A stretch of 62,179 nt of DNA from Candidatus Poribacteria bacterium. GTDB lineage: Bacteria; Poribacteria; WGA-4E; WGA-3G. Below are positions 28,921-47,510 of the stretch, piece by piece. Position 1 is the first letter of the stretch. The number at the start of each line of letters is the position of its first letter. The stretch covers positions 1 to 62,179 of the forward strand of contig JAPPFM010000058.1 of the NCBI GenBank assembly GCA_028821605.1, in the 5' to 3' direction. The position numbers and the translations under genes are program-made. The notes under the pieces were generated by a model. That model made no database searches. It had not been told where the DNA came from and saw nothing but the letters and a program-made list of their open reading frames with translations.

Positions 28921-29434
28921 GCACGAAAAATTAAGGAAAAAATCCCTTACAAGGCTAAAGAAAGAGGAAATCCATGCTGCTATAAATATGCCATTCCTAC
29001 GGGACTAAAGACACCAGACCTATCTCACGGTTTTCACGGGACCCGTGAGGTGTTTCGGCTCAAAGACTTTTCAAAGGTGAAAAGCACGCCTCTTTTTTCA
29101 ATTGACACCTATAGTAACCGGTGGGAACCCTTCTATCTTATCAGCGGACAAGCGCGCGGTAAATGCCCAGGAAGTATCCGCTATCCCTCAAAATTTGTTG
29201 GATAGTGACTGGTTTCGGACAAAAATTGGGCTGAAATAAAAAAAATGTAGTATTTTATTTTTATTTTTGCTATACTGTATTTTGGCATCCGTAAAATCCA
29301 TTTATGGGTGGTTGGGCGAGAATAGCAGTCTCCCCAACCGCGGCACTGCCAAGTCTGGGTTGCCAGTGCGTGTTTAAGTATATCATACATCTGAATTGAT
29401 TTGTCTGATATTTTAAGCAGCGTCGTAACTTTAC

Positions 29435-29463
29435 TTGATTTTTTTCGGAAAATCTTGTATGAT
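29435..29463 (+). promoter_or_regulatory. Sigma70-type promoter before a structured RNA
   Basis: TTGATT, 17 bases, TATGAT. Predicted +1 is 29470-29471, precisely the first base of the outer stem of the RNA fold described next. Confidence 0.6.
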
Positions 29464-29470
29464 TACGAAT

Positions 29471-29562
29471 GGACGTTGGAGACGGATTGCCGGGGTAGTT
29501 CCTACTACCTCCCGTCTCCACCCAACTGGCAATTGGGTATGCGTCTGAGAATACAACGTCCA
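29471..29562 (+). ncRNA. Candidate structured small RNA or leader RNA (92 nt)
   Basis: Outer stem GGACGTT/AACGTCC (7 bp, extendable by one) closes a junction. Branch one: GGAGACGG/CCGTCTCC enclosing GGGGTAGT-TCCT-ACTACCTC, with a six-base bulge (attgcc) on the 5' side. Branch two: ACCCAA/TTGGGT with a seven-base loop. A single strand (29539-29554) completes it. A run of six T follows at 29573-29578, a few bases beyond the stem. It may be an independent RNA or the leader of the restriction-modification gene 229 bases downstream. It does not fit tRNA or an attC site. No family recognised. Confidence 0.45.
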
Positions 29563-29790
29563 AATACCACTATTTTTTGACTTACTGATGGTCGGACATC
29601 TGCGCTTTGCAGTCGCGTTCTGCGCGTTTGCTTTGTTGGCGGTACCCTGGACATCAGCACCTGAAAGATTTTATTATTTATGCCACCTATCACCCATTTG
29701 ATTCCGCTAATGTCATGAAAGAAGCGGACTTGGGACGGAATGAGATTCTGGTATGGCTGCATCTCTCTGATAGGGGTCGAAGGAGTGCGT

Positions 29791-32025
29791 ATGAATGAGG
29801 CACATGCAAGAGTTCGTATCAATTCAATGATTGAATCTGCCGGGTTCAAAACACATAATTACATTGATTCCGACCCATCAGTTGGCTATGAACATGATGT
29901 TCGTAATCTTATGATGCGTGAACGACTAAACAGGGCAGGCAAAGTTCCGGACTATCATTTCTATGAACCAAATTCTGCTACACCTATGGCGTTTTTAGAA
30001 GCAAAGCGGTTTCAAGGTGTTAAATTGGATGATGCCCTTAAGCAGGCGATGGAATATGCAACGATTGCTTGTGACAGTAACACGCCACCTATGATAGTCT
30101 TTGCCTCAGATGGCATACAAGTCCGTTCACAACATGCCGATGGCAGCGAGTTAACGTTGAATAACTACCCTATAGACTATATCCCTTCGCCTGTGCTTAT
30201 GCGCGAGTTAGTCGCTACTCCCACAGCTACACAAGGGCAAGCGATTAACAGTGTCAAAAGTATCATAAAATTGTTTGAAAAGGTATCAGGGCTAATGCGA
30301 TCTGATGGTATAGATGCGGGGATGAATAGGCTTAGGGAATTCTGTGCCTTGCTTTTTATCAAGATTATGAGTGAAAGAGGCAATCCATCTGCGCGTGAAA
30401 AATGGAATCGCCTTTCGTCTGTCACCGGACAGAATTTGATAAGTGGATACAGAGACATTCACCAAGACTACCGCGATACCTATGGCGGTATCTTTTTGAC
30501 TTCTCAACTCAACAATCCTGTCATTCTTGAGCAGATCATATCCACTCTTACACCGATTAACTTCACAAATTCCGCGATAGACATAAAAGGAGAAGCCTTT
30601 GAGTATTTCCTTGCCGAATACAATGCGGGAGAGAAAAGCGAACTTGGTCAACATTTTACACCGCGCCATATCACAACAATGATGGCGACCTTATTATCAC
30701 CGCAAACCGGTGAAAAAATCCTCGATCCCTTTTGTGGCACTGGTGGGATGCTCATTTCCGTATACTCACATATAAGAATGGGGCTCAACACTGAAAACAC
30801 AGATTTTAGTGACAAGCTACACGAATTGCAGGGCGAAACGCTCTATGGAAATGACATTAGTGGCGGGGCATCCAGTCTTGCCAAGATGAATATGATAATC
30901 TTAGGAGACGGACAAAGCAATATACAACGTACAGATAGTTTTGATAATTTAGAGCGTCACGTATACGACAAGGTTATCACAAATATCCCATTCAACCTCA
31001 AAGGCACAATTAACGTTCAACAAGTCCTTCCATTTGTAAAGGCAAGTGGAATGTCTCTCTCTGACTACAATAGTATGTGTGTTGTGAAATGCATTGAATC
31101 ACTAAAGCCAGGTGGCTCGGCTGCTATCGTTCTGCCCCTCACCTTCTGTCATTCACCTGAATACAGACAAATCAGGGATTACATTGCAAGGAAAAGTAAA
31201 ATAAGGGCGTGCATTCGGTTACCTGAAAAGACTTTTATTTCTTATACTGCTGCACAGACCGCAATTCTGATTGTTGACGATGCCCATAGACGACAAACGA
31301 GTGATTTCAGCTATATCCATCTGAAATCTGACGGTATGTCGCAAGATAAAAAGCGAGAACCTGTCCCTGAAAATGATATGCGCGACTTGTTGGAATACAT
31401 ATCAGAAAATCGGATACATGAAACACCAGGCGCAGTTCAGATGCGATATAGTAATGCCGGGAGTTTCTTGGAATTTCAACAATTGTTTGGTACAAATGAA
31501 AATGTTTGGAAATTAGAGGAACTTCTAATTCTAAAAGATGCCAAACATGGTCTTGAATCTGATAAATTGTATGCTGAACCTGGACTTGACAGCCAATCTA
31601 ACCTTGTCCGTGTCAAAGGAAATCTGCGTTTGGGGAGGAATATCAAAGCAGAGAAAGTTATCGCTGAAGAAGGTGACTTGATTATCGGCACCCTGCACAC
31701 AAATAACGGGAACGGTTTGTTTGCTGTAGCGGATCGCGAGTATATCTGCACTTCGCAGATTGTAGCCACAATCCGCGCGGAAGTAGTACCTCCTGAATAT
31801 CTTATACAAGCACTCCGTACGGAGTTTCCCAGACAACTTATTCCTACAGACTTGGTAGGACGTGAAAACTTTACCACTAAGCAGATTCTAAATGTGCTTA
31901 TACCGAAACCTGATACAAAGGAATTAGCAGAGATGTATAGTGTGCAAAAGAGTATAGAAAAATTAAAATCACGGTTGGACGAAAACAAGCAAAAAATTGG
32001 TGAACTTTTGGACAAAATCTCGTAA
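29791..32025 (+). CDS. Single-chain restriction-modification protein (HsdR_N nuclease + HsdM methyltransferase + target recognition domain)
   Basis: 744 aa from the ATG at 29791, which has AAGGAG 5 bases upstream. Residues ~1-135: HsdR_N-like PD-(D/E)XK domain with Asp54 (VPDYHF), Glu70 and Lys72 (FLEAKRF). Residues ~160-570: HsdM-type N6-adenine methyltransferase with GQHFTPRHI, motif I DPFCGTGG (312-319) and motif IV NIPF (398-401). Residues ~580-744: one HsdS-like target recognition domain ending in a long helix (SIEKLKSRLDENKQKIGELL). There is no helicase motor, so it is more like type IIG/BcgI-type enzymes than type I. It probably cuts and methylates DNA as a stand-alone immune enzyme. 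Confidence 0.85.
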   Translation: MNEAHARVRINSMIESAGFKTHNYIDSDPSVGYEHDVRNLMMRERLNRAGKVPDYHFYEPNSATPMAFLEAKRFQGVKLDDALKQAMEYATIACDSNTPPMIVFASDGIQVRSQHADGSELTLNNYPIDYIPSPVLMRELVATPTATQGQAINSVKSIIKLFEKVSGLMRSDGIDAGMNRLREFCALLFIKIMSERGNPSAREKWNRLSSVTGQNLISGYRDIHQDYRDTYGGIFLTSQLNNPVILEQIISTLTPINFTNSAIDIKGEAFEYFLAEYNAGEKSELGQHFTPRHITTMMATLLSPQTGEKILDPFCGTGGMLISVYSHIRMGLNTENTDFSDKLHELQGETLYGNDISGGASSLAKMNMIILGDGQSNIQRTDSFDNLERHVYDKVITNIPFNLKGTINVQQVLPFVKASGMSLSDYNSMCVVKCIESLKPGGSAAIVLPLTFCHSPEYRQIRDYIARKSKIRACIRLPEKTFISYTAAQTAILIVDDAHRRQTSDFSYIHLKSDGMSQDKKREPVPENDMRDLLEYISENRIHETPGAVQMRYSNAGSFLEFQQLFGTNENVWKLEELLILKDAKHGLESDKLYAEPGLDSQSNLVRVKGNLRLGRNIKAEKVIAEEGDLIIGTLHTNNGNGLFAVADREYICTSQIVATIRAEVVPPEYLIQALRTEFPRQLIPTDLVGRENFTTKQILNVLIPKPDTKELAEMYSVQKSIEKLKSRLDENKQKIGELLDKIS

Positions 32026-32368: not shown

Positions 32369-32719
32369 ATGAAAATACCAAACGCTGAACGTGCCGTTGT
32401 GGACATTCGCAAGCTGCGAGAGTATTGTCTCAACCCACAGCATCACAGAGGAAAACATAAAGCCCACCTATTTACTTCCTTACTCGGTATGCACACTGAT
32501 GATGCAGAAGGGTTACGCAATGCTTTATTAGAGGCAGTTAAAAAACAAGACGCACAATTAGGAGAAAAAGACGCGTATGGACAGCGTTATACGCTTGATT
32601 TCACACTGAATTGGCGGGATAAACAAGCGACAATTCGCAGTGCTTGGATTATTGAAACTGATTCTGACATCCCAAAATTGACAACCGCGTTTCCGTTGAC
32701 AAATCAGGATAAACTATGA
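32369..32719 (+). CDS. DUF6883-like small protein, first gene of the defence operon
   Basis: 116 aa. The segment IRKLREYCLNPQHHRGKHKA followed by LGMHTDDAEGLRNALLEAV matches my memory of DUF6883, a small domain often next to DUF4926 genes and in toxin or defence settings. Its biochemical role is not established. A long leader with a palindrome precedes it. Its stop overlaps the next start (ATGA), so expression is tightly coupled to the large nuclease-NTPase. A role as inhibitor, adaptor or co-sensor is plausible but inferred. Confidence 0.7.
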   Translation: MKIPNAERAVVDIRKLREYCLNPQHHRGKHKAHLFTSLLGMHTDDAEGLRNALLEAVKKQDAQLGEKDAYGQRYTLDFTLNWRDKQATIRSAWIIETDSDIPKLTTAFPLTNQDKL

Positions 32720-35700
32720 AAGACAAATTTTCCGATAACACCTCAAACATAGATAGTTCGCCTGAACGCAATCAAAAGCCTACAGAAAAAGGCAACATCA
32801 AACTTTTGGATGTCGTCACGCTCACACAGGATGTCCCTGAGCATAATCTCAAGCGTGGAGAAGTCGGCACGGTTGTTGAAATCCTTTCAAACGGCGAAGC
32901 GTATGAGGTTGAATTCAGCGATGATAACGGGCAAATGTACAAGTGCCTTAGTTTCCTCGCCTCTCAACTCAAAGTGATACATCAAGCACCGATAAAAGCA
33001 GATGTCAAACGTCAAGCAAACGATTCCATAGAAGGATATCGCTACCAGATCTTGCACAGTGTGAATGCTTGGCTGGACCTTGCCGAGAACGATATTCTCT
33101 ACCTTGAAATTGCGGAAGATTTTGATATAGAGTCAGATGGAACGTTTACAACAACACAAGTCAAACACACGCAAAACCCTATAACACTCAGGTCTCAGCA
33201 GGTAATTGAGGGGATCAACAACTATTGGGAACTACGGACTAACAATCCAGATCGGCGTGTGAAATTCCGCCTCCTCACAAAATCCAAGATAACTAAAGAA
33301 CAAGGTAATTCACTTGAAACGGATAAACCGGGTCTTGAAGTATGGAGCCGTTGTTCCGGTGATGAAGCAGCTATCGAAAAAATATCAGACTTTTTACAGA
33401 CTGACGGAAAAATATCAGATGAAGTCAATGATTTTCTGAAGGTATCATCACCTCAAAAGATTTATGAACAACTCATTGAACCCATTACTTGGGACACAGA
33501 TTGCAAACCGTCCAGTTTTGTTGAGCAATCCATACGTGAAAAACTGGTTTATCATGGCGATCGGCACGGTATTTCACCTTCTAAAGCAAAAGAGATCGTT
33601 GAACCTCTTATCACTGAAACTTGGAAGGTAGCAGGACAACCGGAAAACCGCGAACTTATCCGATTACGTTTTCTGGAAATTTTTGAGGAAAAAACAAAGC
33701 GATTGGTTTCTGAACAGTACCTGCAGCACATGGAAATGTTAGCCGCAATGAAAGGTGCCGTTCGGACGGGATTCGCTGGAGGTTCATCCGATATCACGAT
33801 TGAATCTTGCCCGCACATACAAACCGGTATCCCGCTGCTCTATCTTGATGTTGTTATGCCAAGAACTGAATTACTCACAAGAATCCAAGATAAACTCCAA
33901 TCAGAAGGTATAGTCATAATCCAAGGCGGAGTGGACAAGGGGAAAACAACACTAGCAAATTTGACTGCAAACGCTATAGAAGGCAAATGGTTTTGGCTAA
34001 AATTGACAAATGTAGATTTAGCCCAAGTTCCGATAATTTTAAAGAAACTTGCTAATACAGTAAGTCATGAATCCGCACAAGTGAACGTCGTCATTGACGA
34101 CTTGAACTTACAACCGCAAGAGTTGCAAGAGTATGAAGAAGACTTGGGAATCGTGGCTTACAGAGTATTGGAACGTGGGGCTAAACTGTTGATCACAAGT
34201 CAACATAAACCCCCTCCTAATCTCATCCACAGTCTTGGTTTGCCATCGTCAGTAGTGACCCCTGCTCCTTACTTTACTATATCTGAAATTGAGCAATTTG
34301 CAGTAGAAATGGATTGTCCGACTAATGCCGCAAAAATTTGGGCAAAATGGATTCAAGCACATACAGGCGGACACCCAAGACTCGTATACACCCGAATGGC
34401 TAAATTACGAGAGGAAAACTGGCAACAACCGGATACAATTGAACGTATGTTGCAAACACCAATAGAGGTGATAGAGGATCGTGAAGCTGCAAGACAATTG
34501 CTTACAAACATCCCAGAAAATCACAAAGAATTACTCTATAGACTCAGCCTAATGGTTACTGAATTCAGAAAAGATTACGTGCGTAATATTGGTGAGATAC
34601 CGGAATCTATACCTTATCCAGGGGATATTTTCAGTCAACTGGTCGGGCCATGGATAGACCAAGTTAGCGAAAACTACTACACAATTTCTCCTTTATTAAA
34701 GAACGCAGCCAATGAGGTTTGGCCTAAGAGCAAGATAAATGCCCTTCATGCTCAGGTTGCTAATGCAATCCTCAAAGCAAACAATTTAACCATAATAGAA
34801 GCCGAGTCTGTCCTCTTACATAGTATACATGGTATGAATAAAAAGGGAGTTATTGCTGTCACCGCGTCATTGATGACCGCTTCAGACGATAATTGGAAAA
34901 TGGTCAGCCAAGTCCTTTCGTGGGTCACACACATTAAAACTAATCCATCCAAAGAATTGTTTCCTGGAGATACCTTTGCAAATTATTGCTTTCGATCATT
35001 GCAACATCGCCTTGCTGTTGAAGTAGAACCGGAGTTTGCACCGAAGATACTTGAAATTTGGGATAAAGAAACCAAACCACACGAACCACATCAGTCATAT
35101 CTGCAGACCCGTCTAATGCTGGCGACGCAGGTATTGAGATATAACCAAGTTTCACTTCCTGTCAAGCAGATGATAGGCTACCTCAAAGAAATTATTGATA
35201 TTAGAGAAAATCATAAAGATGTCTGGGAAACATATCGCAATTCCATGGCACAATTGGAAGAACATAAAACTGGTAAATCCAGCATTTTCAGCATTTTATT
35301 TAGTTTTGTCTATGCCCGTAGTCCTATTTATGCGCAATTCCTTGATGACCTTATTGATGCATTGGATGAGCTTGATCCAAAGGATCGGACTTTATTATTC
35401 ACTGATTTTGAAAATGAAAGTATTGATTGCCAGATTTTGATTAATGGCGTATGGCTGTCGGAAGCAAATCTTGAAAACCCCGATTGGACAAGATGCCTTG
35501 AAGTTTTTGACAAAGTAATTGAGAAAACCATTGCCTGGGGTTACCCCCACATCGCTGCTGCTGCAGTAAGAGGAAAAGCCATCATTCATGACGAAAAATT
35601 GAACGATCCAGATACTGCCTATAAAGTTCTTCAAGATATTGCGTCAGAAGTGGGAAGGTTACCTGTAATAGAAGAAGAGCGAGCAATGGTATATTTCCGC

Positions 35701-37059
35701 CATGAACATTACAGCGAAGCACTCAATATTTACGAGCGTATTCTTCCTGAATGGAATCCACCTTCAGAACAATTAAACATTGGACCTTTAGAGGAGTATC
35801 GTCGAGCCGCTATCTGTGCCGCGTCATTGGATGATTGGGAAAAGGCAGCTACCTTCCTCGAAGAAGGGGGAAAGAAAATCCAAAAGATTGAGAATACTGA
35901 AAGATATATCGGTTTGTATGCTGATGCAGGATTTGCCCACTTTAAAGCAGGTAATATGTTGAACTGCATAAAGCTGCTGCATCTGGCGTTGCAAAATTTT
36001 GAAATGATTCCCCAAGACAATACAAATCTCACGTACTTTACTTTGAAGAAACGCTTAATGGGTTCCATAGGGTGGGTAGCATATCACGAGAACGAAAATT
36101 ATACTTCAGAATCCGAAGAACCGCCTGTAGGTTTCTGCAGCAATCCAGAAACAAATGAAGAGGTTCTAAACTTACCCGATTTCCCAATAGGATATGCATG
36201 GTCTACTCTAGCAAAACTTGAGTATAAATTTGGACATGGAACAAAAATTGTAGATCGTGTATTGCAGATCACAGATCAAGATGCAGATATAGTATCAATC
36301 AGTTCACTTTTCCTCCTTAAAATACAACATGATTTTAGAAACAAAACCTTTGATGAATTACCGGAACGGATACATCAATTAGCGAATGTATGTGACTCAA
36401 TACAGAAACACATCCAAAGCGGGCAAGGAATTGGAGTCGCGGAAACTGATTCCTTACCTATCACCGGTGTACCTAACTTCGATTCTGTTGAGAGCATTAC
36501 TATTATGTTGGTAGCATCCCTTCTTGTGCAATTACCAACAGGGGCAGATACGCGCGAAATTTTGGCTATATGGCGGACGAACTCGTCAGAACTCCCTATA
36601 AAAGAAAATACGATCATTGCGCTTGATTTGATTGAATCAATCTTGGACGGAAGTCAAAACAACGCTCTATTAGCAATGAAAACACAAGACAATAAATATG
36701 AAAATCGACTCGCAGCAGCATTAAAGATTGTTCATAGCATCGAAACGAGTCCAGAAAACCTTTTTCATGCACATACACTCATTACAACTTGTCTCATTAA
36801 TAATCTAACATGGCTAGATCCTGTTGTGTCAGATTTGGCAGAACTCCTTTCTGCACAATGGCTTGAAAAAATAAAATTTCGAGCGATGTTGAAAATGCCT
36901 ATGATCACAGTGCCCCAGATAGAACATGCCTGTCAAAGTAATGAGACTGGTAGAAAAAAAATTGGGCAGATCCTACTCGCTGTACTTCAAGCTGTCTTAG
37001 TCAAGGTAACACCTGAAACTTTACAGCAGTTTCACAACTGGGTTGATAATCCACGATAA
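32716..37059 (+). CDS. DUF4926 / Cap4-like nuclease / STAND NTPase / TPR protein (candidate Avs-like immune effector)
   Basis: 1447 aa. Residues ~27-88: DUF4926-like (IKLLDVVTLTQDVPEHNLKR, then GEVGTVVEIL...AYEVEF). Residues ~104-330: Cap4/DUF4297-like nuclease, starting SIEGYRYQILHSV, with Glu131, Asp137 and the Gln148-Val-Lys150 active-site pattern. Residues ~385-700: STAND NTPase, Walker A GGVDKGKT (404-411), Walker B VNVVIDDLN (457-463), and the GHPRLVYTR segment typical of NB-ARC/STAND proteins. Residues ~720-1447: mostly alpha-helical, TPR-like (DDWEKAATFLEEGG, GFAHFKAGNMLNCIKLLHLA). This nuclease-STAND-TPR order is that of Avs antiphage proteins, which sense a phage protein with the C-terminus and then cut DNA. 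The N-terminal DUF4926 is an unusual addition. Confidence 0.82.
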   Translation: MKDKFSDNTSNIDSSPERNQKPTEKGNIKLLDVVTLTQDVPEHNLKRGEVGTVVEILSNGEAYEVEFSDDNGQMYKCLSFLASQLKVIHQAPIKADVKRQANDSIEGYRYQILHSVNAWLDLAENDILYLEIAEDFDIESDGTFTTTQVKHTQNPITLRSQQVIEGINNYWELRTNNPDRRVKFRLLTKSKITKEQGNSLETDKPGLEVWSRCSGDEAAIEKISDFLQTDGKISDEVNDFLKVSSPQKIYEQLIEPITWDTDCKPSSFVEQSIREKLVYHGDRHGISPSKAKEIVEPLITETWKVAGQPENRELIRLRFLEIFEEKTKRLVSEQYLQHMEMLAAMKGAVRTGFAGGSSDITIESCPHIQTGIPLLYLDVVMPRTELLTRIQDKLQSEGIVIIQGGVDKGKTTLANLTANAIEGKWFWLKLTNVDLAQVPIILKKLANTVSHESAQVNVVIDDLNLQPQELQEYEEDLGIVAYRVLERGAKLLITSQHKPPPNLIHSLGLPSSVVTPAPYFTISEIEQFAVEMDCPTNAAKIWAKWIQAHTGGHPRLVYTRMAKLREENWQQPDTIERMLQTPIEVIEDREAARQLLTNIPENHKELLYRLSLMVTEFRKDYVRNIGEIPESIPYPGDIFSQLVGPWIDQVSENYYTISPLLKNAANEVWPKSKINALHAQVANAILKANNLTIIEAESVLLHSIHGMNKKGVIAVTASLMTASDDNWKMVSQVLSWVTHIKTNPSKELFPGDTFANYCFRSLQHRLAVEVEPEFAPKILEIWDKETKPHEPHQSYLQTRLMLATQVLRYNQVSLPVKQMIGYLKEIIDIRENHKDVWETYRNSMAQLEEHKTGKSSIFSILFSFVYARSPIYAQFLDDLIDALDELDPKDRTLLFTDFENESIDCQILINGVWLSEANLENPDWTRCLEVFDKVIEKTIAWGYPHIAAAAVRGKAIIHDEKLNDPDTAYKVLQDIASEVGRLPVIEEERAMVYFRHEHYSEALNIYERILPEWNPPSEQLNIGPLEEYRRAAICAASLDDWEKAATFLEEGGKKIQKIENTERYIGLYADAGFAHFKAGNMLNCIKLLHLALQNFEMIPQDNTNLTYFTLKKRLMGSIGWVAYHENENYTSESEEPPVGFCSNPETNEEVLNLPDFPIGYAWSTLAKLEYKFGHGTKIVDRVLQITDQDADIVSISSLFLLKIQHDFRNKTFDELPERIHQLANVCDSIQKHIQSGQGIGVAETDSLPITGVPNFDSVESITIMLVASLLVQLPTGADTREILAIWRTNSSELPIKENTIIALDLIESILDGSQNNALLAMKTQDNKYENRLAAALKIVHSIETSPENLFHAHTLITTCLINNLTWLDPVVSDLAELLSAQWLEKIKFRAMLKMPMITVPQIEHACQSNETGRKKIGQILLAVLQAVLVKVTPETLQQFHNWVDNPR

Positions 37060-37083
37060 TTTGATCGTTAGAGGAGCCTTTTT

Positions 37084-37736
37084 ATGCCCACACTCGAATT
37101 CAACGGAAAACACCATATCTACACCCACCATCTCACCGTTCCCTACCGACCACTTGAAACTGACGAAAGCCGCTCTTGCAACCCGACCAGTGAAAACGAT
37201 AACCTGATCATTCACGGCGACAACCTGCACGCCTTAAAAGCATTACTCCCACGCTACAAAAACAGCATCAAGTGCATCTACATCGACCCACCGTATAATA
37301 CTGGTAATGAGGGTTGGGTCTACAACGACAACGTTAACAGTCCACTGATGAAACAATGGTTCACAGAGAATGCCCCATTGATTAGGGACTTAAATGGTGG
37401 CATCGGGTCGTGGCGTGTCAACAAGGCGAGGGTTACGGGCAAGGCTGGAACAAACAACGCATCTACTCAGCCTTTGTTGCAATGGCAAAGAAAGTGGAAG
37501 GCATGACGCGCGTCCTAATTTTTGAGACCAAGGGACAACAATTTAAACATAACCGTGACACCACGTACACACAAAAAGTGTTGAAAACGTTTGAAGAAGC
37601 ATTCAACACCAGCAGCAATACGAAAATGCGTGAAGTTCCAATACAGACAGGCATCTTTCGATTGGTGTTCAACGCGCAAGAATTTCAAGAAATATCCGCT
37701 CAATTGAATGAGGGTAGGTATTCTACGGAAAGTTAG
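37084..37736 (+). pseudogene. Deletion scar: type III mod 5' end joined to res 3' end
   Basis: The first ~100 codons (frame of 37084, ribosome site AGAGGAG) are the start of a type III DNA-methyltransferase: HHLTVPYRPLE, NLIIHGDNLHALKALLPRY, and the catalytic YIDPPYNTGNEGWVYNDN. After about 37395 homology stops. In a shifted frame (from ~37410) the sequence becomes the end of a type III Res endonuclease: GWNKQRIYSAFVAMAKKVE, then RVLIFETKGQQFKHNRDTTY, ending at 37736. The usual PDF Asp of the nuclease is changed to Ala (YSAF). So a large internal deletion removed most of mod and res; neither activity can remain. Confidence 0.8.
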
Positions 37737-43877: not shown

Positions 43878-46800
43878 ATGCATCACAAACGCTGCCCAAA
43901 TTGTGGGTTTTTGAATCCGTCGTTCAAATTTTGTGGTGAATGTGGTACGTCCCTTGGTCATTCGTCACATTCGCGTCAAGTTCCAACAGCGGACACCGCT
44001 GCGATGGAGCAAGCATTGCCACATGGGGCAGAACGCCGCCAGTTAACCGTCCTTTTCTGTGATATTGTGGATTCCACCGCATTCACCGAAAAACTGGATC
44101 CTGAAGAACTCCGAAATCTTTTAGAAGTGTATCGGACGTGTGTCATGGAGGTGGTTTTAGCACAAAACGGGCATATTGCACGCTATTTCGGTGATGGTAT
44201 CCTCGTTTATTTTGGATACCCGATTACACACGAAGATGCTGCACACCGCGCCGTGAGAGCCGCTTTAGGTATCGTTGCCGCTATAGAAACGCTGAACCCA
44301 TATCTCCAAACGACTTTCGGCGTAGAAATTAAAGTTCGGATCAGTATTGATACAGGACGTGTTGTCGTCTGGCATATCTCAGGACAGGAAGTTCCCGAAG
44401 CAATTGACATCGTAGGAAAAACGCCGAATGTCGCGGCGAGGATGGAAAAACTGGCGACACCTAACAGCGTTGTGATTGGTGATACAACACATCAATTGGT
44501 TGAGGGCTTTTTTAAGTGCGATGCACTCGGTGCCTCTGTGCTCCGCGGTATTTCGCAGCCCGTGAACATCTATCAGGTGTTAGGTGAAATTCCGGCACAG
44601 AGTCGGTTGGACATCGCCAGCGAGAGTGGATTGACACCGCTTATCGGACGGGAACGTGAGGTTGAACGCCTCAAAGAAGGTTGGACCCAAGTACTCGAAG
44701 CGAAGGGGCAAGCCCTCCTTATTGAGGGTGAAGCCGGGATCGGAAAGTCGCGATGTGTGCAGATGATTCAGGCGTATGTCGCTCAGCATTCGGAGGCGGT
44801 TACCTTAGAAAGTAGGTGCTCGCCCTATTACCAGAACAGTCCACTCTATCCTATTCTTTCGCTGTTTCAAGAACACGTCGTGCAGTTTATAAGTACTGAT
44901 ACTGCAGAGACAAGACTCGAAAAACTCGAAAACTTGTTGCGTGACTATAGCGGACAGGATACTGAGGCACAAGCGGATATCCCGGAAATGCTGCCTCTCC
45001 TTGCTGAATTATTGGAGATACCTTTTGAGGTCCAACGACAAACAGAAATTGGCATCGGTGCTCGTCTTTACAGTAGACCGGTCGAACAGGACACATATCC
45101 ATCAGGATGGGGAGGAAGACAGCGGCGACAACAGACGTTGGAAGTGCTTGTCCAAGTGTTGCTGAAGATGTCAGAGCAGAAACCGATACTCTTTGTCGTG
45201 GAGGATCTTCACTGGATTGATCCGTCGAGTATCGAATTTCTTACACTCTTAATCACACGGATCGAAAAAGCGCGCATTTTCACCGTCTTGTCCTCTCGTT
45301 CCGATACACATCACTTTCGGAACAGCGTACAGCCTGATGAGAACGGGAACTTACGGACGCTTCCCGACGATCATTTTACGAATACTGGGGTGGATAGAGA
45401 GGCTCTGGAGAAACTGCTACAACCGCTATGGGCGAAAATACTGCCGTTAGATCCACTTACACCACCGCAAGTGAAGACGATGATTAAGCACGTGGCTGGC
45501 GATACGGAATTGCCATCAGACCTGTTGATGAAAATCGTCGAAATGACAGAAGGGGTCCCGCTGTTTGTCGAGGAACTTACACAGATGATGCTTGAAGGCG
45601 ACACCTTGGCACTGTCCTCAGATGCGTTAGATGCAACCGCTCCACAGACACAAACAATGGGGGTACCTGTAACACTACAAGACCTGCTAACAGCGCGGTT
45701 GGACGAACTGGGTCCCGTGAAGGAGATCGTCCAACTCGGGGCAACCTTAGGGAGAGAATGGACAGCCGAGCTGCTCCACAAGATCGCTTCTGGGGTCAAA
45801 CTCGGAAATAACGTTTTTACTGATTTTTCAGTCCTGAAGGCTGAATTAGACAAATTAGTAAACGGCTACATCTTCAATCGCGACGAGTTGGCTGATAACC
45901 AGTCCCGCTATACGTTTAGGCATCCTCTGCTGCGTGAAACGGCTTATCAGTCTCTGCTAAAGAGCAGGCGCCAGTTGTACCACCAGCAGATTGCAGAGGT
46001 GTTACAGAGCGGAGACGGTTTCCAACCGGAACTCGTCGCATATCACTATACTGAAGCCGGGCTTCCTGAAAAAGCGATCGACTATTGGCACCGCGCTGCG
46101 CATCGCGCCTTAGAACGTTCGGCAAACGTTGAGGGTGTTCGTCATATCATGCAAGGGTTGGCAGCTCTCGAAACACTCTCAACGAGCGTCAACACGGCGG
46201 AGGAACAAGAAGCCGTTAAGCGGCGGGAACTGGAATTACAAACAACACTTGGTACAGCACTGATTGCGACCAAAGGGTATGCCTCTCCAGAGGTCGAAGT
46301 TGCTTACACACGCGCACGGGAACTGCTTGAAATACTCGAAAAAACGGAGGAGACCTCTTTAAATGATGGCTCCGATCTCTTGCTTGACGAGATAAAAGAT
46401 CTTCGCTTTCCAGTTCTGTTTGGGTTATGGCTCTCTCATCTGGTCCGCGGACGGCTCCTTTCCGCACGTGAGCTCGGTGAAGCCTGTGTTGCTATCGCCA
46501 AGCAAGCAGGAAATCAAGCGTTTGAAGTCGAGGCACATCGCGCCCTCGGTGCGACGCTCTACTATTTGAGCGAATTCAAAAGTGCATTAGCTTACTTGGA
46601 TGCCGGTATTGAACGTTATCAGCCCCAACATCATCCTGTGCCGGCGTTCCTTCATTATTTGGCAGAACCGGGAATGACACTCCTCGCTTACTCTTCACCA
46701 CTCTTATGGTGTCTCGGCTACCCTAAGCAGGCGGAAGAGCGGCTTAACAAGGCACTCACAATCGGAAAGGACACGAACCATCCTTTTAGTGATGCAGTGT

Positions 46801-47510
46801 CCCTCCACTTTAAAACCGTGCTTTATCAGTACCGTGGTGAAGTAGAAGTCGTAGACACCTCGGCAACAGAGATGCTACAGATATGTCAGGAGCACGAATT
46901 TTCCGTCTGGGAAGCCGCAGCAACAGTCATGAAAGGTTGGGCACTTGCAGAGCGGAATGCCCCTGAAGAAGGGATCGCGATGATTCGTAAAGGTATCGCT
47001 GCATGGGAAAAAACAAGGGCTGAAATGTTGCTACCCTTCTTTCTCACACTGCTTGCACAGGCATATCAACGCGCTGGACACTACACTTTAGCTTTACAGA
47101 CACTCGATTCCGCACTATGTGTTATCACACGCACTGGCGAACGCACTTATGCGGCAGAACTGACGCGTCGGAAGGGTGAACTTTACCTTATCCTCGCCGA
47201 GAAAGTTGAGGCTTTTAGCAATGAGAATACCACAGCGACTTTTGAACAAGCCGAATCCTATTTTGAGGAAGCCTTGTCAATAGCGCGAGGACAGGACGCA
47301 AAATCGTGGGAGCTCCGAACTGCGCTGAGTTTAAGCGAATTATGGCGGACGCAGAACCGTGGTGAAGACGCATACAATTTACTAAAACCGATATATACGT
47401 GGTTCTCAGAAGGCTTTGATACGAAGGACCTTGTGCGTGCAAAAGCTCTCTTAAAGGAGTTGGAGGTTTTTGCCTCTGTTCCTAAACCAGATGAAGAAAG
47501 TCGCATTTAA
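43878..47510 (+). CDS. Zinc-ribbon / class III nucleotidyl cyclase / STAND ATPase / TPR regulator
   Basis: 1210 aa. Zinc ribbon at the N-terminus (Cys6, Cys9, Cys19, Cys22; RCPNCGFLNP ... FCGECG). Class III cyclase domain ~55-240 with LTVLFCDIVDSTAF (metal Asp), HIARYFGDGILVYFG (second metal Asp) and DAAHRAVRAAL. AAA/STAND ATPase from ~260, Walker A GEAGIGKS (~284-291), Walker B ILFVVEDLHWIDPSS. Then ~650 residues of TPR-like helices (DYWHRAAHRALERSANVEGV, FEQAESYFEEALSIA). Such proteins are thought to couple cAMP production to protein sensing. Whether it signals to the Crp-like regulator at 38738 is an open, reasonable idea. Confidence 0.88.
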   Translation: MHHKRCPNCGFLNPSFKFCGECGTSLGHSSHSRQVPTADTAAMEQALPHGAERRQLTVLFCDIVDSTAFTEKLDPEELRNLLEVYRTCVMEVVLAQNGHIARYFGDGILVYFGYPITHEDAAHRAVRAALGIVAAIETLNPYLQTTFGVEIKVRISIDTGRVVVWHISGQEVPEAIDIVGKTPNVAARMEKLATPNSVVIGDTTHQLVEGFFKCDALGASVLRGISQPVNIYQVLGEIPAQSRLDIASESGLTPLIGREREVERLKEGWTQVLEAKGQALLIEGEAGIGKSRCVQMIQAYVAQHSEAVTLESRCSPYYQNSPLYPILSLFQEHVVQFISTDTAETRLEKLENLLRDYSGQDTEAQADIPEMLPLLAELLEIPFEVQRQTEIGIGARLYSRPVEQDTYPSGWGGRQRRQQTLEVLVQVLLKMSEQKPILFVVEDLHWIDPSSIEFLTLLITRIEKARIFTVLSSRSDTHHFRNSVQPDENGNLRTLPDDHFTNTGVDREALEKLLQPLWAKILPLDPLTPPQVKTMIKHVAGDTELPSDLLMKIVEMTEGVPLFVEELTQMMLEGDTLALSSDALDATAPQTQTMGVPVTLQDLLTARLDELGPVKEIVQLGATLGREWTAELLHKIASGVKLGNNVFTDFSVLKAELDKLVNGYIFNRDELADNQSRYTFRHPLLRETAYQSLLKSRRQLYHQQIAEVLQSGDGFQPELVAYHYTEAGLPEKAIDYWHRAAHRALERSANVEGVRHIMQGLAALETLSTSVNTAEEQEAVKRRELELQTTLGTALIATKGYASPEVEVAYTRARELLEILEKTEETSLNDGSDLLLDEIKDLRFPVLFGLWLSHLVRGRLLSARELGEACVAIAKQAGNQAFEVEAHRALGATLYYLSEFKSALAYLDAGIERYQPQHHPVPAFLHYLAEPGMTLLAYSSPLLWCLGYPKQAEERLNKALTIGKDTNHPFSDAVSLHFKTVLYQYRGEVEVVDTSATEMLQICQEHEFSVWEAAATVMKGWALAERNAPEEGIAMIRKGIAAWEKTRAEMLLPFFLTLLAQAYQRAGHYTLALQTLDSALCVITRTGERTYAAELTRRKGELYLILAEKVEAFSNENTTATFEQAESYFEEALSIARGQDAKSWELRTALSLSELWRTQNRGEDAYNLLKPIYTWFSEGFDTKDLVRAKALLKELEVFASVPKPDEESRI

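Follow-up and report, generated by a model that had tools for sequence, protein, structure and literature searches.

Structured RNA pairs with loop complementarity and competing helices that stand before replication functions are known from ColE1 (RNA I/RNA II) and from the CopA/CopT system, while 5'-3' end pairing and refolding are known from hok/sok type mRNA. In bacteriophage P4, two RNAs, SeqA and CI, are located in the leader of the replication genes, and pairing of one RNA with sequences on either side of it causes premature termination (PMC4825925). With IsrK of the Salmonella prophage Gifsy-1, a short RNA and a read-through mRNA arise from one promoter and adopt alternative structures; a second stable RNA, STnc1160, follows downstream, and the locus is part of a mobile element (PMC4825925).

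The locus described here was analysed in a window of 62,179 nucleotides (contig JAPPFM010000058.1), to which all coordinates refer; all features are given for the forward strand. Comparison of its copies shows that the multi-branched fold first reported there, designated RNA2, is one half of a two-RNA module, in which each RNA has a predicted sigma-70-type promoter of its own. In the genome of the window (Candidatus Poribacteria, 5.99 Mb), a block roughly 400-480 bp long occurs four times. By blastn, the block was found in 25 of 60 relatives, all of the same genus; those relatives to which a genome scan gave names are Candidatus Poribacteria metagenome-assembled genomes (MAGs). A covariance model of the RNA2 fold, for which E-values derive from a shortened calibration, located 65 places in 36 of the 83 genomes of the class, belonging to two genera within a single family. 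These places served to build a broader model, which yielded four weaker additional ones, three of which were examined and accepted as relatives, and no RNA2 in other families. All sequences are from MAGs, mostly drafts. Many copies occupy conserved genomic positions, for instance next to a sigma-54 response regulator in each of the two genera.

The RNA2 promoter of the window (29435..29463), found by promoter scan and comparison of the copies, consists of TTGATT at 29435-29440, a 17-nt spacer, and TATGAT at 29458-29463, which predicts transcription to start at about 29470. By itself the match is weak (9/12), and the scan gave 6 promoter-like sites within the 2 kb covered versus 4.2 in shuffles; the window promoter being unremarkable alone, the case rests on comparison. 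The RNA2 core (29470..29562), delimited by folding, covariation, and the broader covariance model, has a minimum free energy of -40.9 kcal/mol, as compared to -28.25 +/- 3.73 for shuffled sequences (z = -3.39; 0/200 shuffles equally stable). Its outer stem P1 is formed between TGGACGTT (29470..29477), the first predicted transcribed bases, termed X, and AACGTCCA (29555-29562). Fold and covariation further define P2 (29478..29519), with 16 bp (8+8 bp) and the 6-nt bulge AUUGCC at 29486-29491, and P3 (29520..29538), a 6-bp hairpin with the conserved loop CUGGCAA at 29526-29532. The 3' tail, AAUACCAC and a U6 run (29563..29578; T6 at 29573-29578), closes the module; conservation is about 0.7-0.9 from 29250 to 29571 and falls just after the T run, which is absent from some copies. 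No canonical intrinsic terminator is found at this 3' end: the U6 run lies only about 10 nt past P1, and the terminator scan lists none there. Nor does RNA2 have the form of an sRNA ending in an intrinsic terminator, as no GC hairpin directly precedes the U run.

In the 65 RNA2 sequences, 93.5% of the cells are paired, with P1, P2, and P3 each kept at 93-97%, where cells count sequences, not events, and the alignment is fitted to the structure; upon sliding the RNA2 versions by 1-3 columns as a control, only 41-47% remain paired. Changes on both sides are seen in 23 of the 32 pairs versus 8.6 in shuffles, a value that none of 500 shuffles reaches, and they include all seven pairs of P1. The extreme P1 versions amount to replacement of the whole stem, namely GAGAGTT/AACTCTC in L033, CGGTCATAA/TTATGACCG in L174, and GAAGCGT/ACGCTTC in L178. 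Most copies have the -10 element 7-9 nt ahead of the P1 foot; it reads TATAAT in L033 and L174-L178, and the divergent copies L035-L037 and L066 carry the near-consensus promoter TTGACT-17-TATAAT. The initial annotation had proposed a promoter with its +1 at the foot of the fold, had considered the coincidence of start and stem unlikely by chance, and had named compensatory changes in the three stems as a check. The promoter and its placement are borne out by the sites themselves, the fold stability, and the promoter distance at homologous loci; the compensatory changes are present in P1, P2, and P3; and, because this distance is conserved and paired substitutions maintain each of the three stems, the coincidence is one of conservation and not of chance. 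At the level of sequence it is thus confirmed that the window fold represents a real structured RNA, conserved and with a predicted promoter of its own, and a predicted start at the stem foot is a conserved property of the family, common to RNA1 and RNA2. An intramolecular pseudoknot between the P2 bulge AUUGCC and GGCAA of the P3 loop would be paired in 85% of the cells, with the middle pair broken in 21/65 sequences and one double change. In one RNA2 copy (L066:2488-2636), about 26 nt of the P2 3' strand and the P3 approach are duplicated.

RNA1 is located about 50 bp upstream of RNA2, and at 49 of the 53 tandem loci the spacing is 50-55 bp. Its promoter, recognised in the window by family comparison (29248..29276), has TAGTAT as -35 (family TTGTAT), a 17-nt spacer, and TATACT as -10 (family TATAAT); most RNA1 copies show TTGTA(T/A)-17-TATAAT, ending about 8 nt ahead of the RNA. 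The predicted structured RNA1 (29282..29416) is marked by its fold (z -2.7), by covariation, and by a model match of 142 bits. Folding gives hairpin b (29308-29341), hairpin c with an internal C-C mismatch (29343-29369), and an AU-rich terminator-like hairpin before a T run (29379-29414). In RNA1, 25 of 37 pairs are changed on both sides versus 13.1 in shuffles, and hairpins b and c covary. At L078:10651 (L054:3651), RNA1, RNA2, and the small-protein gene c5 are followed on the same strand by a second RNA1, of class-B type. A broader RNA1-like class (L185-L202, e.g., L197:503-656 and L202:3022-3175) forms leaders before secreted-protein genes, with the order GGCAG..GAGGTGCGCCGA..TCGACGCGGCACTGCCATAA..TATGACAGCGCTAACC, a GGATTGCC/GCAATCC hairpin, and AAGGAG-ATG; 13 of its 27 pairs are changed on both sides, and it has no match in Rfam. 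The ends of the window cassette (29240-29260 and 29560-29580) resemble an imperfect terminal inverted repeat, AAAAAAATTGTnGTATTT / AAATACCnCAATTTTTTT, to which A/T richness contributes.

The two RNAs are linked by a short complementarity. CUGGCAA of the P3 loop is the RNA2 7-mer that most recurrently finds its exact complement within the cognate RNA1 (UUGCCAG, 41/53 loci), which in the window is the hairpin-c arm at 29360..29366. The other loci mostly show C-to-U changes keeping a G-U pair, and in the 46 ungapped loci the remaining changes at these positions give G-U as well. In L203, where the loop reads CUGCCAA, UUGGCAG in the RNA1 arm compensates for the change; the base concerned is left unpaired, as a mismatch, in hairpin c itself. 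The phage contig L176 keeps the loop complement although hairpin c is otherwise altered (AACGCUG/CAGUGUU); in the distant leaders L216 and L217, the RNA1-like arm AGUGGUAUUG has its match in the RNA2-like tail, CAAUACCACU. Loop and arm vary little, and support comes mostly from conservation plus the one compensatory case, L203. Pairing of the RNA2 P3 loop with the RNA1 hairpin-c arm is likely. By crude whole-length duplex energies, RNA1 did not favour its cognate RNA2, a result that is uninformative, since the method ignores internal structure.

A further feature concerns X, the P1 5' strand. Besides the distal strand AACGUCCA (29555..29562), which is the 3' strand of P1 and is indicated by fold, covariation, and partner comparison, X has a second partner directly 3' of P3, which reads GCGUCUG in the main group and in the window (29541..29547). 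In L174, L178, L176, L033, and L058, two perfect or near-perfect partner copies are arranged around a variable hairpin P4, each matching its own X. The X versions concerned, TCGGUCAUAA (L174), GAAGCGU (L178), GAGAGUU (L033), and GAGUGUUU (L176), are unrelated in sequence. Several RNA2 subgroups keep one P1 partner only. An X with two competing 3' partners is the pattern of a bistable helix, and a switching function would follow from it.

In the window, RNA2 is followed by a gene for an N6-adenine methylase, a type I-IIG-like restriction-modification (R-M) protein (29791..32025, annotation; Shine-Dalgarno sequence AAGGAG at 29780-29785). This neighbour is, by comparison, incidental to the module, as the downstream genes differ between loci: after tandem loci, co-oriented genes encode WD40 and other secreted proteins, the small protein family c5, and GNAT-like, sulfatase-like, and FabZ-like proteins, some of these names, where not scanned, being read from the sequence by eye. 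The c5 protein (about 120 amino acids, weak winged-helix matches) follows RNA2 directly in 7 of 13 occurrences (L028, L031, L041, L054, L055, L057, L058). The initial annotation had seen the RNA at the head of a defence island and before an R-M gene. The island is there in so far as genes for the N6-methylase, an LmuA-like protein, and a truncated type III methylase are found downstream, but these are not retained at homologous loci; a special link with the R-M gene or with defence is not supported, since the other three copies of the genome and about 60 elsewhere precede unrelated genes. For the same reason a guide RNA was rejected, nothing guide-like being found, and a leader of the R-M gene was dismissed because RNA2 is not kept with that gene among homologues. 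The suggestion of a regulatory small RNA or a leader switch fared better, both options being still live for a conserved structured RNA with its own promoter. The window region 32369-37506 encodes a DUF6883 protein, a 1447-amino acid protein with DUF4926 and an LmuA-like stretch, and a 140-amino acid type III methylase fragment, and is likely to represent partly decayed defence genes. At 43878-47510, a 1210-amino acid protein with a nucleotide cyclase domain like that of Pycsar PycC is encoded.

On mobile-element contigs, which are short and were so called from their gene content, the module has a different neighbourhood. In L176 it precedes a DnaB-like helicase gene, and genes for a repressor, tail, and the terminase small subunit are on the same contig. 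In L206 and L207 it is found about 100 nt before a member of a winged-helix protein family corresponding to PHROG replication initiation O-like / DnaD-like helicase loader, and genes for Rep3 initiator, ParA, or terminase lie in the vicinity; in L204 it precedes a distant relative of that family, with Rep3 and ParA on the contig. The position upstream of and co-oriented with a phage or plasmid replication gene thus holds for L176, L204, L206, and L207, and not for the window copy. Two more genes of the family (L216, L217) have similar leaders, most members being without. RNA1 is recognised on two mobile-element contigs only (L176, L203), in addition to RNA1-like hairpins before L216 and L217. 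The winged-helix replication-initiator-like family, which belongs to Poribacterial mobile elements, comprises about 30 genes in 17 genomes (L206:7169-8164, L207:7189-8190, L204:15184-16107). The predicted structure of the RepX protein (pLDDT 69) gave only weak winged-helix matches in Foldseek, including RepE54, all with E above 0.01.

Searches of all families of Rfam 15, including C4 antisense RNA, riboswitches, and 6S, returned no match at the gathering threshold, and below it only chance-level matches to microRNA, viral, and lncRNA families; a known RNA family was accordingly rejected. Outside the phylum, where exact patterns and blastn were used, the RNA pair had no match in collections of phages, plasmids, and viruses, either with patterns against viruses or with blastn against plasmids and phages. 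In the literature searched, no structured RNA of Poribacteria was found. A type I toxin ORF after RNA2 was also rejected, its peptide frame being broken in many copies.

As the module is repeated in genomes and stands directly before replication genes on phages and plasmids, it is probably an RNA switch invented by mobile elements and kept by bacteria. On Poribacterial phages and plasmids, it would be the leader of a replication gene and limit its expression. The UUGCCAG arm of RNA1 would pair with the RNA2 loop in vivo, and this contact may switch P1 of RNA2 from its proximal to its distal form or back. Depending on the P1 form, transcription would then either end at the U run and yield a short RNA2 or continue into the gene that follows; in their short forms, RNA1 and RNA2 could also act in trans. 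Chromosomal copies, that of the window included, would have been kept or domesticated before other genes, often adjoining the sigma-54 regulator gene. We infer both the effect on replication and the role of the chromosomal copies. Taken as a whole, a mobile-element RNA control module for replication genes, similar to P4 SeqA/CI or IsrK and with chromosomal copies retained, is in our judgment about evenly poised between right and wrong.

Among other explanations, two free-standing trans-acting small RNAs (or RNP RNAs), multi-copy siblings unrelated to the adjoining genes, would agree with the separate promoters, with the sharp end of conservation after the U run, and with a closing stem that joins the first transcribed bases to the 3' end, as in many stable RNAs. 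Neighbours are diverse, and at seven loci (L034-L037, L066, L175, L177) RNA2 faces a convergent gene; a role as cis leader is therefore impossible there, and at least some RNA2 would act as free RNAs. However, downstream ORFs are co-oriented in 52 of 61 cases, with upstream ORFs split 28/25, the mobile-element copies are placed directly before replication genes, and the RNA1-like elements elsewhere are leaders immediately ahead of a Shine-Dalgarno sequence and ATG, so that free-standing RNAs as the general explanation are rather unlikely.

The same co-orientation, the two-partner stem, and the secreted-protein genes behind the RNA1-like leaders could be read as a tandem riboswitch sensing a metabolite or ion in the 5' leaders of genes for surface and secreted proteins. 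This is improbable in view of downstream genes without a common metabolic theme, a second promoter between RNA1 and RNA2, the negative Rfam result, and the copies facing convergent genes. Just as little probability is given to a non-autonomous, MITE-like mobile DNA element, the stems of which would matter as DNA. Dispersed copies, also on plasmid and phage contigs, and imperfect terminal inverted repeats scoring above the 95th percentile of shuffles at 25 of 53 loci would suit such an element, but A/T richness inflates this score, no convincing target-site duplication was seen in a search by eye, genomic positions beside the sigma-54 regulator are shared between genera, and both the covarying single-strand structure and the conserved promoters would be unexplained.

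Returning to the RNA control module of mobile elements, it might constitute a new class of two-RNA switch, with tandem RNAs, separate promoters, kissing, and toggling of the 5'-end strand between two duplicated partners, which would control plasmid and phage replication in Poribacteria, while domesticated chromosomal copies may serve the host, in control of its own genes or in incompatibility-type immunity. This wider proposal is a tentative one, and we regard it as possible rather than probable. In uncultured sponge symbionts, the RNA pair would provide an RNA-RNA control system of mobile elements that is open to testing, and its duplicated-strand design keeps two competing helices even where the sequence is replaced wholesale. 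If true, P4/IsrK-style RNA control would extend to a distant phylum, with modules settling at many chromosomal places.

Comparing the module with known systems, RNA2 resembles hok/sok in that either the 3' end or an inner segment can serve as partner for its 5' end, but it has no conserved small toxin ORF inside, and many copies have a disrupted peptide frame behind it. With ColE1 RNA I/RNA II and CopA/CopT it shares a loop-complementary structured RNA pair and competing helices; those RNAs are antisense on opposite strands, whereas both RNAs of the module are on the same strand and have a short loop-arm complementarity. Alternative structures, a second RNA, and the mobile-element setting are common to IsrK and the module, for which a read-through form would be expected, but IsrK controls translation of AnrP and thereby AntQ, and order, fold, and host differ. 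To P4 SeqA RNA and CI RNA, the module is unrelated in fold and sequence and without a Rfam match, and termination would be its presumed mode of action; CI is processed from the leader transcript, whereas in Poribacteria each RNA has its own predicted promoter. In both cases, the leader of replication genes includes a pair of RNAs.
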